Shown here in pieces: positions 50,565-57,275 of a stretch of DNA of 64,000 nucleotides. How positions within the stretch are numbered: position 1 is the first letter of the stretch; each line of letters starts with the position of its first letter. The position numbers and the translations under genes were made by a program. This DNA is from Candidatus Rifleibacteriota bacterium (GTDB taxonomy: Bacteria; Muiribacteriota; Ozemobacteria; Ozemobacterales; Ozemobacteraceae), in assembly GCA_012520995.1 (NCBI GenBank), contig JAAYNI010000043.1:1-64000 (forward strand), given 5' to 3'. Below the pieces are notes generated by a model. That model did no database searches. It was not told the origin of the DNA and saw only the letters and a program-made list of their open reading frames with translations.

Positions 50565-50593
50565 TTGAAGGAGACTGGCAAAACTGTTATAAT
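50565..50593 (+). promoter_or_regulatory. Promoter of the tubulin-like/TPR unit
   Basis: TTGAAG (50565-50570), a 17-nt spacer and a perfect TATAAT (50588-50593), with AAGGAA ribosome site and ATG 35 nt beyond. A good sigma70-type match that defines the two-gene transcript. Confidence 0.82.
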
Positions 50594-50627
50594 ACTAGAA
50601 CATATTCTTTAAGAAGGAAATTAAAAA

Positions 50628-53600
50628 ATGACTGCAAATTTTGAAAACAGATTGGCTCTAAATCCAGCTTTAATTGTAGGGCTGGGCGGAACAGGGAAAA
50701 AGACAATTATAAATTTTAAAGAAACCTTTTTAAAGAGTCCTCAGATTAAAGAAGCTTTTGCAAAATATGATAAAGGCGAGCCGCACTTGCCTGATTTCAT
50801 TGATATGCTTTGTATAGATACAGACGTTTTTGACGAGAATAAACCCGAAGAAACGGAACATCATATCAGACTTTCAGAAGAAGAATACCATCGGATTGCT
50901 ATCAGCAACACAGGACAAATAGCGGACAACCTTGACAGCGATACATATTCTTATCTTTATGAATGGTTTCCCAGAAGCCTGCGCCATCATGTGGGGCAAA
51001 TTAGCCAGGGTGCTCACCAGTTTAGATTTACTGGAAGATTTGGTCTTTTTGTTGATATTCAGCCGATTTTTCAAAAACTAAAGAGCAAAATCAGCAAAAT
51101 TATTGCAAGAAGCAACGTCAACCAAGATGATATTATTGTTCCTCTTACAGATGTTCAAGGCCGCATAGCTACTCCTGAATTCTATGTGGTGGGTTCTATG
51201 TGCGGCGGTTCAGGAGCAGGCATGTTCTTGGATGTCGCTTACTTGCTGAAAATGGCTTATTACCAACTTTCCGGAGGCAAGGGATCTCCTCATATAACAG
51301 CTATACAGTTGACTCCCGAAGCTTTCACGCAAATAGCTATAGATCCGAACATTAACTCTACCGGCCGGATTGAGGCTAACGGATACGCCTCTTTGGCAGA
51401 GGTCTTTTACTTCATGAGCAAGGAAAAATTTCCGCCTGCTAAATCCGCGAAGGAAGTAATAGCTCAAGACCGAAGAAATAAATTTATAGTTAACTATGGC
51501 CCTCTCGGTAAAACCTCAGACCAGACTACTTTTGGCAGCATAGCCGATGAGCTTCCCTTTGACAACTGCTACTTGCTTGGCACCTCAAACATGGACGATG
51601 CTCCGACTTATTACGCCATAGCTTCTGATTTTATTTACACTAAGTTGGCTACTCCTTTGCGTAAAGCTCAAAACTCAATGCTGGATAATGCCTCTCAAAT
51701 TTTGGGACAGCTTTCTTCGGATTTGGAAGGCAAACAGCTTAAGTGTTTCAGTTCGGCAGGCTTTAAAAGCTTTTACTACCCCGTGGATGTGGTTCAGGAC
51801 TTGTATACCAACAAGCTTGCGATGGATTTGACCTACTGGCTCAAAACTTCTAAGGACAAAATAGTTATAAACGCTATGGTTGACGAGTTTTGCCGGAGCA
51901 ATCCTACTGTCTTGGACTTCGATCCTGACGCAATGATGATAAGGCTTAAAAATTTGGTAACCCGCAAGGAATATTGGGACAATCCCAGATATCATACCAA
52001 GTTTTTTTCAGGAGCTCAAAAGGAAGGCGAAAGCACAGCTGATTACATTTTGAGATTTATTTCTGAAAATGCTTCAAAAAAGGTTAAGACTGCCGAGATA
52101 CGCAACAGAAGCCAAGTAAGGCTGGAAGAAGATGCCATAGCTTTAAGAGAGCATATCAAAAAGAAAGTTATTGAGATTATCAACGATCCTGATTTGGGCG
52201 CACAAGTTGCATCTGACTTCTTGGATAATTTTGATAAATTTATAAAACGCTACGCATCTGATGAAATGCAACGCAAGAAAAATGAAATACGCATGCTTCA
52301 GACCAGAGAGCGCATGGAATACACTAAGCTTGCCACAGAACTTAATGATAAGCTTACAGGTGTCAGCGGCACCTTCTATCAAGTTATATCAGTTTTCAGC
52401 TCCTCCGCTTTGGAAAAACAAAAAGCTGAGTTGATTGAAAAACAAAAAAAAGTTACAGACTTGGAATATGATCTCTTTATTGCAGATTCAGTTGACGATT
52501 TCCTTAAGATTCTGGGCGTAGAAACTCAGGAGTTGAAAAAACAGGTCGAAGTCATTGTTTACAAGCTTGGGCAGATAAGCAAAGCCGGATTCATAGAACG
52601 CCAATATTATAAATACCTTGACGCTCTTATGCCTTATTCGCCAGTTCAGAACTTTATTAGAACCTGTATCTTTGAAGAACGCGACGTAGAGCCTTTTTAT
52701 AAATATATTTTGGGCGAAATGAGCAATAATGATATAGAAGCCGATTTCCTGCTTCAGATTAAGCTGCACGAAGAATGGGATAAATATACCAATCCGCATG
52801 CTGATGCCTTGCAAAACGATATTATCGCTTATTGCGAAAAGATTGTTAAAGATCGCATTTTTGATAATATAGAAGAGTTTGTCCATTGGAAAGACTCTTA
52901 TAGACGCGGCTATAAGCAGAGTCTCTTTACAAGCTTGATGAATCAGTCTGCGCCTCTGATAACTATAAACGACAGGGGCAACAACCAGCCTCAGAGAATG
53001 AATATAATAACTTTGGGCATAGCTGAAGAAAATTCAACTTTGGCAGAAGAAATTAAACAAGAAATGAGGAAAAGCGGTGTGGGTTTGACTGTGGCTCCTA
53101 CCATGAACCGCTATGAAATAAGTCTTCTGCAAACTTTGCATGGCATAGCTCCCTACAATATCAGTTCTATAGCTCAATGGCAGAAAAAATACAGAGACAA
53201 TAATTCCAAGATCAATTGTCACGCTATAATGGCTAATGACGCTTATCCTGTTTTGTGGGCAAGTTATGGGCTTATTCCTCCCAAAAAGCTGGAAGAATAC
53301 TACATGATTTATCTGCTTTTGCGTTACGACATCATAGTAGACCAAGAAAGAGGCTTGCACGGAATAGAATATAACAATGAACTGGTGCAATATGAGCTTC
53401 ATTACCAACAGGATAGGCCTTTGCCTATAGGAAGAACGCTGCTTGAAATGTTTGAATATCTCAAAAATACCACTATGGGTACCTATCTGATTCAGACTGT
53501 ATTCAAAGACTATTGGCAGTCCAAACCCTTCCCCGAACAACATGAGCTTGTGAAGACCTATTTGCCTCTCATGAAAGGAAAAGTTGAAAGTCTCGAAGAG

Positions 53601-53750
53601 CGCATAGAAAAAGAAATCAAGCAGAGCCGTGAGGTTTCTTATGAGCATGATGAGCTGTTGTCTATCTTCAGGGGAATCTATGGAATTCTAAAAGACTATG
53701 ACGAGAACTTCACCAAGATTGTCAATATGAGACCTAAGGCAACAAATTAA
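50628..53750 (+). CDS. Tubulin-like protein (Tubulin_2 type)
   Basis: 1040 residues, no signal peptide. The N-terminal part has two nucleotide-loop signatures of the tubulin/FtsZ superfamily: ALIVGLGGTGKKTI (about 15-28, T1-like) and VVGSMCGGSGAGMFLDV (about 187-203, T4-like, GGSGAGM for GGGTGSG). This fits the bacterial Tubulin_2 family, far larger than FtsZ. The middle (about 500-680) is charged and coiled-coil rich; the C-terminal 350 residues are alpha-helical. Such proteins are predicted GTP-dependent filament or scaffold formers; no member has a settled role that I know. Twenty-four nt separate it from the secreted TPR gene. Confidence 0.85.
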   Translation: MTANFENRLALNPALIVGLGGTGKKTIINFKETFLKSPQIKEAFAKYDKGEPHLPDFIDMLCIDTDVFDENKPEETEHHIRLSEEEYHRIAISNTGQIADNLDSDTYSYLYEWFPRSLRHHVGQISQGAHQFRFTGRFGLFVDIQPIFQKLKSKISKIIARSNVNQDDIIVPLTDVQGRIATPEFYVVGSMCGGSGAGMFLDVAYLLKMAYYQLSGGKGSPHITAIQLTPEAFTQIAIDPNINSTGRIEANGYASLAEVFYFMSKEKFPPAKSAKEVIAQDRRNKFIVNYGPLGKTSDQTTFGSIADELPFDNCYLLGTSNMDDAPTYYAIASDFIYTKLATPLRKAQNSMLDNASQILGQLSSDLEGKQLKCFSSAGFKSFYYPVDVVQDLYTNKLAMDLTYWLKTSKDKIVINAMVDEFCRSNPTVLDFDPDAMMIRLKNLVTRKEYWDNPRYHTKFFSGAQKEGESTADYILRFISENASKKVKTAEIRNRSQVRLEEDAIALREHIKKKVIEIINDPDLGAQVASDFLDNFDKFIKRYASDEMQRKKNEIRMLQTRERMEYTKLATELNDKLTGVSGTFYQVISVFSSSALEKQKAELIEKQKKVTDLEYDLFIADSVDDFLKILGVETQELKKQVEVIVYKLGQISKAGFIERQYYKYLDALMPYSPVQNFIRTCIFEERDVEPFYKYILGEMSNNDIEADFLLQIKLHEEWDKYTNPHADALQNDIIAYCEKIVKDRIFDNIEEFVHWKDSYRRGYKQSLFTSLMNQSAPLITINDRGNNQPQRMNIITLGIAEENSTLAEEIKQEMRKSGVGLTVAPTMNRYEISLLQTLHGIAPYNISSIAQWQKKYRDNNSKINCHAIMANDAYPVLWASYGLIPPKKLEEYYMIYLLLRYDIIVDQERGLHGIEYNNELVQYELHYQQDRPLPIGRTLLEMFEYLKNTTMGTYLIQTVFKDYWQSKPFPEQHELVKTYLPLMKGKVESLEERIEKEIKQSREVSYEHDELLSIFRGIYGILKDYDENFTKIVNMRPKATN

Positions 53751-53774
53751 AGACTTTGTCAGGGGGAACCTTGG

Positions 53775-56729
53775 ATGTTCAAAAAGACCTTTGCCCTTAT
53801 CGCGGCAGTATTTTTACTGATAATAAGCGTACCTTTTCAGCTTGAGGCGCGCATTGATTTTGGTCTGACTATATTTGGGATAGAAGAGATAAAATTCAAT
53901 GTCACGAAAGATGCGGATCTGAACTTTCATCTGCTGAAAAAATATCTCGGAGAACAAGAAAATTCCGTTTATCCGCAATTGCAGGCTGTTGAAAGATGGT
54001 TTGAGCTGGTACGTATGTCGGATTTGCCCAGACAAGAACAGCTGATTGAATCCGCTGCTTCTTTCTTTAAGCCTGAAGAAAAAACGCCCGACAATACAAG
54101 GCTTGCAATGCTTTATTTTCATGGGCTTTTACTCACTCAGGATATCGCCGATGATGTTGCAAAAGATGAGGCTTTCGAAGAAATGCTTTTCTCCATGGAA
54201 GACTCATTTTCAGAAAACTTTGATTATTGGCTGATTAAAGGTCTGCTCTTTACCTTCCTAAAGGATAGAAATACAGGCTATTGGAAAAACTTTAAGCCTC
54301 AAACAGATCTTTCTCGCGCTATGGATCTTTTGCCTGAAAATGCGCATTCGGCTTTTGTTTTAGCTGAAGCTTTCCGTTCACTTGATCATTCCGAAGCTAA
54401 TCTCTTTGTTTCTGTTGCTACATATGAGAAAGCGGCTCAGTTAGACTCGCCTAATAAAAAGTTGCAGAACTATATTTTCGGCGTCTACATGGGCATACAT
54501 GATGACTATGCAAAGCAAAATAAAAGAAAACCTTTCTGGCTAGAGGAAGCTGTTTATAAAAAGATTTTGCTTCTAATGCCTGATAATGCGAATGCTCTTA
54601 ACAACTTGGGCTATCTTTACGCGGAATATTCTATAAATCGAAAAGAAGCTCAGGCGTTATGCGAAAGAGCGGTTGCTCTTGCTCCCAACAACCCTAGTTA
54701 TCTGGACAGTTTGGGATGGGCGTCTTATAAAAACGGCAACTATACTCTGGCGGAAAAATCGCTTCTGGCTTCTTTAAGAATAAAAGAAAAAAGCTATGAA
54801 GCCAACTATCATCTTGCAACTCTTTACTACAGCATGCGTCGATATAACGATGCTATGAACTATTATCTTAGGGCTCTCGAACTTAAGCCTGGCGCTCCTG
54901 AATCTCTAAATAACTTGGCTTATTTGTATCTGGAAGTAGGAACTTCTGAAAAAGATGCTTTGGAAATGGCTCAGGATGCAGTTAAGCAAGAGCCTGGCAA
55001 TCCTTCTTATCTGGATACTTTGGGCTGGGCTTATTTCAAAAATGGTATTCTGGACAAAGCCGAGTTTTATTTGAAAAAAGCTATAAATTTAATACCTAAT
55101 GAGCCTGAAATATTGCTTCACATGGCTCACGTGAATCTTGAGAAAAAAGATTTTGATGCTGCTTTAAGTTATGCGAAAGAAGCCTATAAAAACAATCCGG
55201 CTATGAAAGATCCTGAGAACACCCTCTATATGGCTGTTCAGCTTAAGGCTCTTTATACAGCTTTGGCTGATTATCATGGCATAATGGGCAAGCAGGCAGA
55301 TCTTTCCAAGGTTCTGAAAATAATGAACGCAATAGCCGCCTTGTATCAAGAAGAAGGCAAGTATGCAAAGGTTGCGGAAATCAATAATATATGCTCCGAT
55401 TTGCGCAGCGGTAAAATATCTTTGGAAGAACCTATATTTACTACATATATGTTGGCTTCGCCTCCTAAGATAGGTTTGAAAGAAGAATCCCAAAAAGTTC
55501 CTTTGCCACAGGAGACCAAAGAGCAGCCAGCTGTTGAACAACAAGTTCCTGCAAAACAAGAATCTTTTAAGCCTGCGGGAAAAAGAGAACGCTCTGACTT
55601 TTATAAGTCTGTGCCAGAAAATGACTATTCAATGTCAGCGTCTTTTGGCCCCTCTTTTTTCATATGGCTTAGCCAATTTGGGGAGTTTGCGGAAAACTTT
55701 CAAGACAAAAAGCTTTCTTTGATTGTGAAAAATCAGAAACTTTCTCCAAAAGCTCTTATTGTCAAGCTTGAATCGCAAGAAGAGCCAGGAATAAAGCTTT
55801 TGCAAATGTTCTACGCTTCTTTTAATACTATGAATGCAAATGTAGATTGGAAAGACGGACAATTTAAGCTTGCTCTTAAAAACTCTGAGACGGTTTACTT
55901 TCAGGCCAGCAAAGCCTCTGTTTATTACAATGCAGAGGGTTTTTTGAGCCGTGAAGAACTTGATAGATTGGATTCTTTTCTTTCTCCTTTCAATGAAGAT
56001 TTTCTTGAAATGACTTTTAATAGAGAAGCTTTTCTTAATTCTTTGCCAGTATTTTTACGAATTTGTGTAGAGCCTTTTCTCACCTTCCGTGAAGTTTATA
56101 TGGATGCCGCATTTCTAGGGGATACCTTCAAAGCTTTTATAATTGCTGAAGCTGAAAATGAACAAAGCTTGGAGCAGCAGAGAACTGAGCTTCAAAAGGA
56201 TTTAATGAACTCCAAACTGATTTGGCAAAAAAGAGGAATTGATATGTCGGTTATTATGGAGAAAGGGGAGGGGGATAGAGCTAATCATGCTTATTTAACC
56301 TTGCTTTTCCATAATCTTCCGGAAGCCTTTAAAGATATTTTTGATAGCGACAGTTACTTGAATAAAGTTCTCAAATGGATTCTAAATCTGAGAATATGTG
56401 AGCTGAATCGCTTTTTTTCAGCAAGTCATATAGATGACTTTTGTCCCGAAAATGGCTTGGTGCAGATAAATCCGATGACTTGTGAAATAAAATGCTCAAT
56501 CCACGGTGGACTTGTCGTTCCTCTGATATTGAATTCTGCTACTATGTGCAATTTTCATAGATACAGACTGTCTCTGATGCTTAAGCTTTCCAATCAAAAC
56601 TTGCCAAAAGCTGATGAAGAACGCTTTGTAAAAGAGCTCGCTGAAAAGTTTAACTTGGCTCCATGTCCCGATGGAGGTTCTTGGTATTTGAAAGACGGAA
56701 CTGTTCGTTGCACAAAGCATGAAAATTAA
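53775..56729 (+). CDS. Secreted TPR protein with C-terminal Cys-rich motifs
   Basis: 984 residues with signal peptide (about 1-26); GGGGGA ribosome site. TPR repeats from about 190 to 490 (e.g. ANALNNLGYLYAEYSINRKE, PSYLDSLGWASYKNGNYTLA, repeated twice as NLGYLY/LDSLGWA pairs). A Pro/Gln/Glu linker spans about 575-610. A beta-rich DUF3352-like region (about 620-870) follows. The end has two C-P-x-x-G...C-x-x-H motifs (CPENG...CSIHGG near 895-915; CPDGGSWYLKDGTVRCTKH at the terminus). These Cys/His pairs resemble small modules seen at the ends of pseudopilin-like proteins. Operon partner of the cytoplasmic tubulin-like protein. Confidence 0.86.
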   Translation: MFKKTFALIAAVFLLIISVPFQLEARIDFGLTIFGIEEIKFNVTKDADLNFHLLKKYLGEQENSVYPQLQAVERWFELVRMSDLPRQEQLIESAASFFKPEEKTPDNTRLAMLYFHGLLLTQDIADDVAKDEAFEEMLFSMEDSFSENFDYWLIKGLLFTFLKDRNTGYWKNFKPQTDLSRAMDLLPENAHSAFVLAEAFRSLDHSEANLFVSVATYEKAAQLDSPNKKLQNYIFGVYMGIHDDYAKQNKRKPFWLEEAVYKKILLLMPDNANALNNLGYLYAEYSINRKEAQALCERAVALAPNNPSYLDSLGWASYKNGNYTLAEKSLLASLRIKEKSYEANYHLATLYYSMRRYNDAMNYYLRALELKPGAPESLNNLAYLYLEVGTSEKDALEMAQDAVKQEPGNPSYLDTLGWAYFKNGILDKAEFYLKKAINLIPNEPEILLHMAHVNLEKKDFDAALSYAKEAYKNNPAMKDPENTLYMAVQLKALYTALADYHGIMGKQADLSKVLKIMNAIAALYQEEGKYAKVAEINNICSDLRSGKISLEEPIFTTYMLASPPKIGLKEESQKVPLPQETKEQPAVEQQVPAKQESFKPAGKRERSDFYKSVPENDYSMSASFGPSFFIWLSQFGEFAENFQDKKLSLIVKNQKLSPKALIVKLESQEEPGIKLLQMFYASFNTMNANVDWKDGQFKLALKNSETVYFQASKASVYYNAEGFLSREELDRLDSFLSPFNEDFLEMTFNREAFLNSLPVFLRICVEPFLTFREVYMDAAFLGDTFKAFIIAEAENEQSLEQQRTELQKDLMNSKLIWQKRGIDMSVIMEKGEGDRANHAYLTLLFHNLPEAFKDIFDSDSYLNKVLKWILNLRICELNRFFSASHIDDFCPENGLVQINPMTCEIKCSIHGGLVVPLILNSATMCNFHRYRLSLMLKLSNQNLPKADEERFVKELAEKFNLAPCPDGGSWYLKDGTVRCTKHEN

Positions 56730-56787: not shown

Positions 56788-57006
56788 ATGGCCGTTAATG
56801 TACAAGATACGATACTTCAAGATCTTAAAGATACAAAAACACAAGTTAAGATCTTTTTAATGAAGGGTTTTCAGATTCAGGGCACAGTTCAAGGTTTTGA
56901 TACCTTTGTTATACTTCTTGAATCCGAAGGCAGATTGCAGCTTATATACAAGCATGCTATATCTACACTTCAGCTGCCCGATGACTATGTAATTCCGCAG
57001 TCCTGA
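56788..57006 (+). CDS. hfq: RNA chaperone Hfq
   Basis: 72 residues, Sm fold. Sm1 (VQDTILQDLKDTKTQVKIFLMKGFQIQGTVQGFDTFVILL) and Sm2 (LIYKHAISTLQLP with the conserved YKHA) are complete; the C-terminal tail is minimal. Proximal-face Gln8-like residue and distal Tyr/Phe are in place. It hexamerises to pair small RNAs with mRNAs. GGGGG ribosome site. A 19-bp hairpin terminator follows. Its presence supports small-RNA regulation in this organism. Confidence 0.97.
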   Translation: MAVNVQDTILQDLKDTKTQVKIFLMKGFQIQGTVQGFDTFVILLESEGRLQLIYKHAISTLQLPDDYVIPQS

Positions 57007-57028
57007 AAACAAAAAAGTCTAAATAACT

Positions 57029-57075
57029 AAAATCGCAAATGCCCGAGTTGAGCAATCTCGGGCATTTGCGATTTT
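57029..57075. terminator. Perfect 19-bp hairpin after hfq
   Basis: AAAATCGCAAATGCCCGAG (57029-57047) pairs without mismatch with 57057-57075 over a 9-nt loop. A at one end and T at the other allow use in both directions; the T run after the stem is only TTTT. Confidence 0.88.
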
Positions 57076-57275
57076 AGGCTGACTTATTTTTCGTCTAGTA
57101 GTTTGTAATATCTAAATCTTTGTTTTCAGTTTTTCAGAAAATTATAATGGCTTAAATAAAAAGTTAAAGTAATAGGTATTTATGCAAGTCAGCAAAGCTG
57201 TTATCGCCACAAATATTGAATCTAAGCAATCATTTCTAATTTATACTTTATAATTTTGCTCTATTGAAGCCATCC

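Follow-up and report, generated by a model that had tools for sequence, protein, structure and literature searches.

The window analysed here, a 64,000-nt stretch from a Candidatus Rifleibacteriota bacterium of the family Ozemobacteraceae (GenBank assembly GCA_012520995.1, contig JAAYNI010000043.1, positions 1 to 64,000), carries a gene for a large tubulin-like protein (tub) followed by genes for an exported tetratricopeptide repeat (TPR) protein and for Hfq. We regard it as probable that this is a shortened FtsZl1 (Tubulin_2) locus standing before an older TPR–hfq pair, with tub in the role of a scaffold. FtsZl1 was described by Makarova and Koonin (2010) as an FtsZ-like domain with a coiled coil and a helical C-terminus, partnered by vWA and GTPase proteins and predicted to act in membrane remodelling (PMC2875224); Tubulin_2 has been equated with FtsZl1 (PMC9871819). 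An earlier note on the window had seen a candidate for an undescribed system in tub and the TPR protein. That reading is not supported. The protein family was described in 2010, and the locus appears to be a shortened variant of a known system whose function is predicted. Our reading builds on direct observation of family membership, locus orders, phylogenetic placement, partner absence in the window's genome and retention of the nucleotide loops.

The window's genome (G000 in our comparison, where G denotes a genome, L a locus, g a genus and f a family) is a 2.84-Mb metagenome-assembled genome, 96% complete, with the window on contig 1; its closest named relatives include Candidatus Ozemobacter. 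The locus comprises the following features.

50565..50593, plus strand: probable sigma-70 promoter, TTGAAG-17-TATAAT with an extended -10 element (TGT); consensus site at a position conserved in relatives
50628..53750, plus strand: tub, FtsZl1/Tubulin_2 protein of 1040 aa (Pfam 191.5 bits; alignment of 26; AlphaFold2 (AF2) pLDDT 69), with a tubulin/FtsZ-like N-domain at about residues 15–401, a coiled coil at about 488–651 and a mostly helical C-terminal part
50679..50699, plus strand: T1 nucleotide loop GLGGTGK, tub residues 18–24, from the alignment
51204..51224, plus strand: T4 nucleotide loop GGSGAGM, tub residues 193–199, aligning to FtsZ GGGTGTG
52089..52580, plus strand: long helical or coiled-coil segment of tub, residues 488–651, with AF2 helices at 488–518, 524–577 and 592–651
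53751..53774, plus strand: 24-nt tub–TPR spacer, in relatives the site of a vWA gene and, in some, also of two GTPase genes
53775..56729, plus strand: exported TPR protein of 984 aa (Pfam TPR; AF2 pLDDT 82.5; alignment of 19)
56442..56504, plus strand: Cys/His module 1 of the TPR protein, CPENG...CSIH, residues 890–910
56664..56720, plus strand: Cys/His module 2 of the TPR protein, CPDGG...CTKH, residues 964–982
56788..57006, plus strand: hfq, the third gene, encoding 72 aa (NCBIfam TIGR02383, 84.4 bits over cut-off; Pfam Hfq 2.9e-25; TPR neighbour in 27/28 loci)
57027..57077, no strand assigned: 21-bp perfect inverted repeat with a 9-nt loop between hfq and a convergent gene (-36.2 kcal/mol, z -9.0), a likely bidirectional terminator

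The two plus-strand open reading frames and the 24-nt gap between them were confirmed, as was the earlier note's assignment of tub to the Tubulin_2 type, with two nucleotide loops and a helical extension. Tub residues 15–401 match Pfam Tubulin_2 (PF13809) with 191.5 bits, compared with a curated cut-off of 27. T1 (GLGGTG), D64xD66 and the glycines of T4 (GGSGAGM) are invariant or nearly so across 26 relatives whose identity falls to 18%. These elements are colinear with the phylum's own FtsZ: the profile alignment of tub residues 1–425 scored 26.5, whereas the maximum among 30 column shuffles was 19.8. The colinear hhalign result was obtained with a full-length FtsZ master, a truncated master having aligned T4 alone, and the alignable sequence consists of short N-domain blocks only. 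The AF2 model contains an alpha/beta N-domain, long helices over residues 488–651 and a mostly helical tail that includes a small strand region at 791–838. In the structural comparison proposed by the earlier note, the best Foldseek match in the PDB was TubZ (2xka, prob 1.00, E 9.5e-3); other leading matches included FtsZ and CetZ. Together, sequence and model support tub as a member of the tubulin superfamily, sharing the T1 and T4 loops and perhaps the fold with FtsZ, TubZ and CetZ and differing from them in its long coiled-coil extension and in the T7 signature discussed below.

No transmembrane segment was detected in tub (maximum mean hydropathy 1.14), and a PDB sequence search with the N-domain returned no relative of note. 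Matches of the whole tub profile to apolipoproteins, designed helical proteins and keratin were discounted as coiled-coil-like. A viral origin was also rejected, a scan of IMG/VR for two short peptide patterns having turned up one weak relative. The genome encodes a canonical FtsZ in addition (G000:C36:9728-10207, 181.6 bits), in which T7 reads NIDFND. Since tub is 62.9% identical to its counterpart in genus g4 and FtsZ 60.2%, tub appears constrained about as strongly as FtsZ; judged from these comparisons, it is still under constraint, with its nucleotide loops intact.

What the window lacks becomes apparent from its relatives. In Ozemobacteraceae, the gene directly 3' of tub normally codes for a vWA protein of 343–351 aa that has a single transmembrane segment at its N-terminus and an intact DxSxS metal ion-dependent adhesion site (MIDAS); its vWA domain is probably periplasmic, although the charge bias is slight. 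Full-length vWA orthologues (480–615 bits) occur in 16 of the 24 family genomes, every one of which also has tub, and vWA without tub was found in none of the 24. Tub without vWA was seen in four genomes, namely that of the window and G014, G018 and G020, which belong to genus g11 (Fisher p 0.007 for co-occurrence, uncorrected for relatedness). Nine genomes carry a GTPase of ∼620–650 aa, usually with a second one of ∼550–700 aa alongside; representatives match MMR_HSR1/Dynamin_N weakly and gave no DO-GTPase match. The complete order tub–vWA–GTPase–GTPase–TPR–hfq is present on single contigs at four loci (L072, L073, L074 and L099), and this six-gene order occurs in the deepest branches of the family. 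With the relatives as positive controls, the window's genome yielded no vWA orthologue, either beside tub or elsewhere, and no GTPase orthologue; three further vWA matches in it are located on contigs 69 and 87.

The window resembles the FtsZl1 system in the domain order of tub, in the vWA and GTPase genes of its relatives and in the canonical FtsZ of its genome. It differs in that the vWA gene and the diverged GTPase are missing and that tub stands next to hfq and the gene for an exported TPR protein. In the relatives, moreover, the GTPases form a tandem pair matching MMR_HSR1/Dynamin_N, and no kinase or OmpA gene was found in the tub neighbourhood.

Outside the phylum Tubulin_2 is rare, with a match in 14 of roughly 360 genomes, and a vWA gene stands directly 5' of tub in 7 of 12 loci there (L188, L189, L191, L192, L193, L196 and L197; the L189 call was based on a local vWA profile and on the similarity between the upstream genes of L189 and L188). 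At L187, L196 and other tub-adjacent loci in other phyla, large neighbours were observed that belong to no Pfam family and have at least two predicted transmembrane segments. At L204 (G007, 64% complete), a GTPase pair lies beside prepilin-like genes, and neither a tub nor a vWA orthologue was found in that genome. In family f5, loci L091, L094 and L097 contain another Tubulin_2 paralogue followed by a Pfam-less membrane protein and a CHASE2-type adenylate cyclase-like protein.

A combination of GTPase, tubulin and vWA proteins also characterizes the predicted conflict systems of Kaur et al. (2020), in which a DO-GTPase/GAP1-N2 module occurs with tubulin and vWA (PMC7159879). The component types are the same, including a tubulin-family protein with a coiled-coil or helical tail and, in the window's relatives, a membrane vWA protein and GTPases; Tubulin_2 loci L188 and L189 carry vWA, and the GTPase of L188 matches DO-GTPase2. 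A conflict or defence function of the window's locus is nevertheless highly improbable. Tub in Ozemobacteraceae is single-copy, occupies a stable locus and is vertically inherited. No DO-GTPase match, GAP1 component or variable effector was recognised, the GTPases matching MMR_HSR1/Dynamin_N instead, and in the vWA-less clade no GTPase orthologue is left at the locus. PADLOC was empty for tub and vWA, giving weak LeoA/LeoBC matches for the GTPases and a TPR-type match for the TPR protein; a defence system was rejected as a candidate, neither PADLOC nor PHROGs having a match for tub.

In phylogenies the window groups with the vWA-less genus g11, with support of 100/99 in the FtsZ tree, 85/86 in the tub tree and 94/94 in the TPR tree, where g6 falls inside the group. 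A single loss can thus account for both, and the best explanation of the trees is that vWA disappeared in the lineage from which the window and its sister genus g11 descend. The GTPases are absent from the clade g4+g9+g1+g6+g11, which the rooted TPR tree explains more simply by loss; tub appears to have been lost later in g6. The terminal branches of the window are long for tub (0.58), TPR (1.71) and FtsZ (0.64). Since FtsZ of the same genome is as fast as tub, the rapid evolution is at least partly genome-wide, and rapid evolution specific to this locus was rejected.

These losses raise the possibility that tub is a relic, losing its function after its partners went. The partners are indeed gone in the window, tub was not found in g6 and G019, and the end branch of the window's tub is long. 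However, the frame is open over its full length, the invariant loop residues and the promoter are kept, and FtsZ is equally fast. With loops and promoter intact, decay was rejected as a candidate, and we consider it very unlikely.

The second gene encodes, as the earlier note had recognised, a TPR protein with a signal peptide and terminal Cys/His modules. Its N-terminus is a hydrophobic signal without a lipobox, followed by a TPR solenoid (∼47–545), a disordered linker (564–610), an alpha/beta domain (∼618–850) for which no Pfam family was found, and two modules of the form CPxxGx(n)CxxH, which are kept in most relatives and absent in genus g11. Foldseek searches with the model returned generic TPR solenoids only. 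TPR adjoins hfq in 27 of 28 testable loci, the exception being G018 (L070); the spacing in the window is 58 nt. The pair is kept in G005, G012 and G019, where tub was not found, and is present in families f3, in which no Tubulin_2 was found, and f7, in which tub is elsewhere. As far as gene order can tell, TPR–hfq is a separate pair, older than the linkage to tub. In G006 and G013, tub–vWA–GTPase–GTPase and TPR–hfq lie on different contigs, each amid other genes. From this unlinking, and from TPR–hfq without tub, it follows that tub goes with vWA and the GTPases, and TPR with hfq. Such a pairing of hfq with the gene for a large exported TPR protein seems to be phylum-wide (TPR–hfq loci L198–L199 and L201–L203, families f3 and f7). 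In several genera and one f3 genome (L066, L069, L071, L083, L084 and L202), a minor-pilin-like cluster is convergent to or near the TPR–hfq end; none stands beside hfq in the window.

The earlier note had called tub and TPR a two-gene unit behind a clear promoter. Both genes were confirmed, but the unit is larger, since hfq follows and then the hairpin; tub, TPR and hfq likely form one three-gene transcription unit. The promoter is not above chance when taken alone, consensus matches across the region numbering 17 compared with 16.7 expected. Yet in 13 of the 16 loci compared (the window counted), a sigma-70 site lies 30–43 nt 5' of the tub start codon, beating dinucleotide shuffles at p<0.05 and taking the form TTGACA-17/18-TATACT in most of the 13. 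Since the site recurs before the same start codon, despite the chance-level consensus count, the promoter at 50565–50593 is probably real, although the 13 loci are related by descent and hence not independent.

A shared transcript would suit the functional pair that the earlier note had drawn, in which a cytoplasmic tub filament and a periplasmic TPR scaffold are direct partners in a trans-envelope or positioning system. Neither of the two findings that it had named as counting against it was made; the homologue search that it had proposed found the direct tub–TPR junction again in three related genomes. The likely single transcript and conserved promoter favour direct partnership, as does adjacency kept in vWA-less G014, G018 and G020 and in the window. 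Direct coupling is further conceivable in that other Tubulin_2 genes abut TPR genes too: in family f5, Tubulin_2 adjoins an exported or membrane-anchored TPR gene at L092, L093 and L096 (4-nt overlap) and at L095 (2-nt gap), and at L194, in another phylum, it is directly 5' of a membrane-anchored TPR gene. On the other hand, a few such adjacencies are to be expected, since TPR-like stretches are abundant (47–147 first-look candidates per genome in the phylum). TPR–hfq is kept in genera without tub, and tub–vWA–GTPases are unlinked from it in G006 and G013. Tub has no transmembrane segment and, once vWA is lost, nothing known in the window would link tub and TPR across the membrane. An ancient conserved tub–TPR pair was rejected, TPR–hfq existing without tub, and the conserved partner of tub is vWA (with GTPases), that of TPR hfq. 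We therefore judge direct partnership unlikely: the two-gene arrangement is probably real as a transcript, but its two products probably do not work as a pair. Also rather unlikely is a rewired system, in which tub, its partners lost, would have been kept as constrained as FtsZ by working with the co-transcribed TPR protein through a membrane link. The TPR protein would instead be an independent envelope protein, co-transcribed with tub by descent.

The f5 loci L092, L093, L095 and L096, with a shorter Tubulin_2 (∼820 aa) and more TPR genes flanking, constitute a second, distinct Tubulin_2–TPR neighbourhood. At L194, a caspase-like gene (Peptidase_C14) lies two genes 5' of Tubulin_2.

A scaffold could also position or serve type IV pilus-like envelope machines. 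The only disruption phenotype for a Tubulin_2 protein found in the literature consulted is that of Synechocystis Sll0445, with impaired phototaxis and altered photosynthetic electron transport; the protein co-fractionates with pilus assembly proteins (PMC9880817). Sll0445, likened to tub by description, belongs to Tubulin_2 and is encoded in a small cluster, Sll0445–Sll0447, whose other members are annotated as FtsA-like and DivIC-like, with TPR or hfq not mentioned. Prepilin-like genes occur near TPR–hfq at L066, L069, L071, L083, L084 and L202, near tub at L091, near the GTPase pair at L204, and near tub with a PilT-like ATPase at L190. Prepilin motifs are, however, very dense in the phylum (25–100 matches per genome), so that proximity to tub or TPR–hfq proves little, and no prepilin motif was picked up when the window was scanned. 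A link by synteny was rejected for this density; we treat a pilus role as a lead and, for the window, as quite unlikely.

Returning to the shortened FtsZl1 locus, the ancestral Ozemobacteraceae order would have been promoter, tub, membrane-anchored vWA, two tandem TRAFAC-type GTPases, TPR and hfq. The N-domain of tub would bind GTP. Using its tubulin-like face together with the coiled coil, the protein may form an oligomer or a filament beneath the inner membrane. In the ancestor, tub would be anchored by the membrane vWA protein, which would also pass a signal across the membrane, and the GTPases would remodel or gate the membrane. In the window's lineage, the tub scaffold may work without vWA and GTPases, through some other anchor.

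Several points weigh against this proposal. The FtsZ catalytic T7 signature NxDxxD/E was not found in tub region 340–360, where placement of T7 is approximate; Asn354 is invariant there and the acidic pair is not conserved, so tub may turn nucleotide over weakly or not at all. The fold is modelled with modest confidence (pLDDT 69, pTM 0.45), and none of the Foldseek matches reached an E-value below 0.001, which qualifies the lead of TubZ, FtsZ and CetZ. GTP binding, polymerisation and membrane localisation of tub are predictions, and membrane remodelling, too, was predicted from genome context. As the genome is 96% complete, an unlinked vWA copy could sit in missing sequence; the same vWA-less junction in three g11 genomes tempers this concern. 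The case for GTPase loss over gain depends on a distant outgroup.

FtsZl1 is among the least understood of the tubulin superfamily, and the proposal that it acts in membrane remodelling has, since 2010, relied on gene neighbourhoods. The locus cautions that adjacency alone can mislead, for tub and TPR would have become close neighbours through the loss of the vWA and GTPase genes between them. At the same time, Ozemobacteraceae offer a natural deletion series, from the six-gene locus to loci without the GTPases, without vWA and without tub. This series points to the parts that are dispensable and, with tub conserved where vWA is gone, would make its dependence on its partners open to test.

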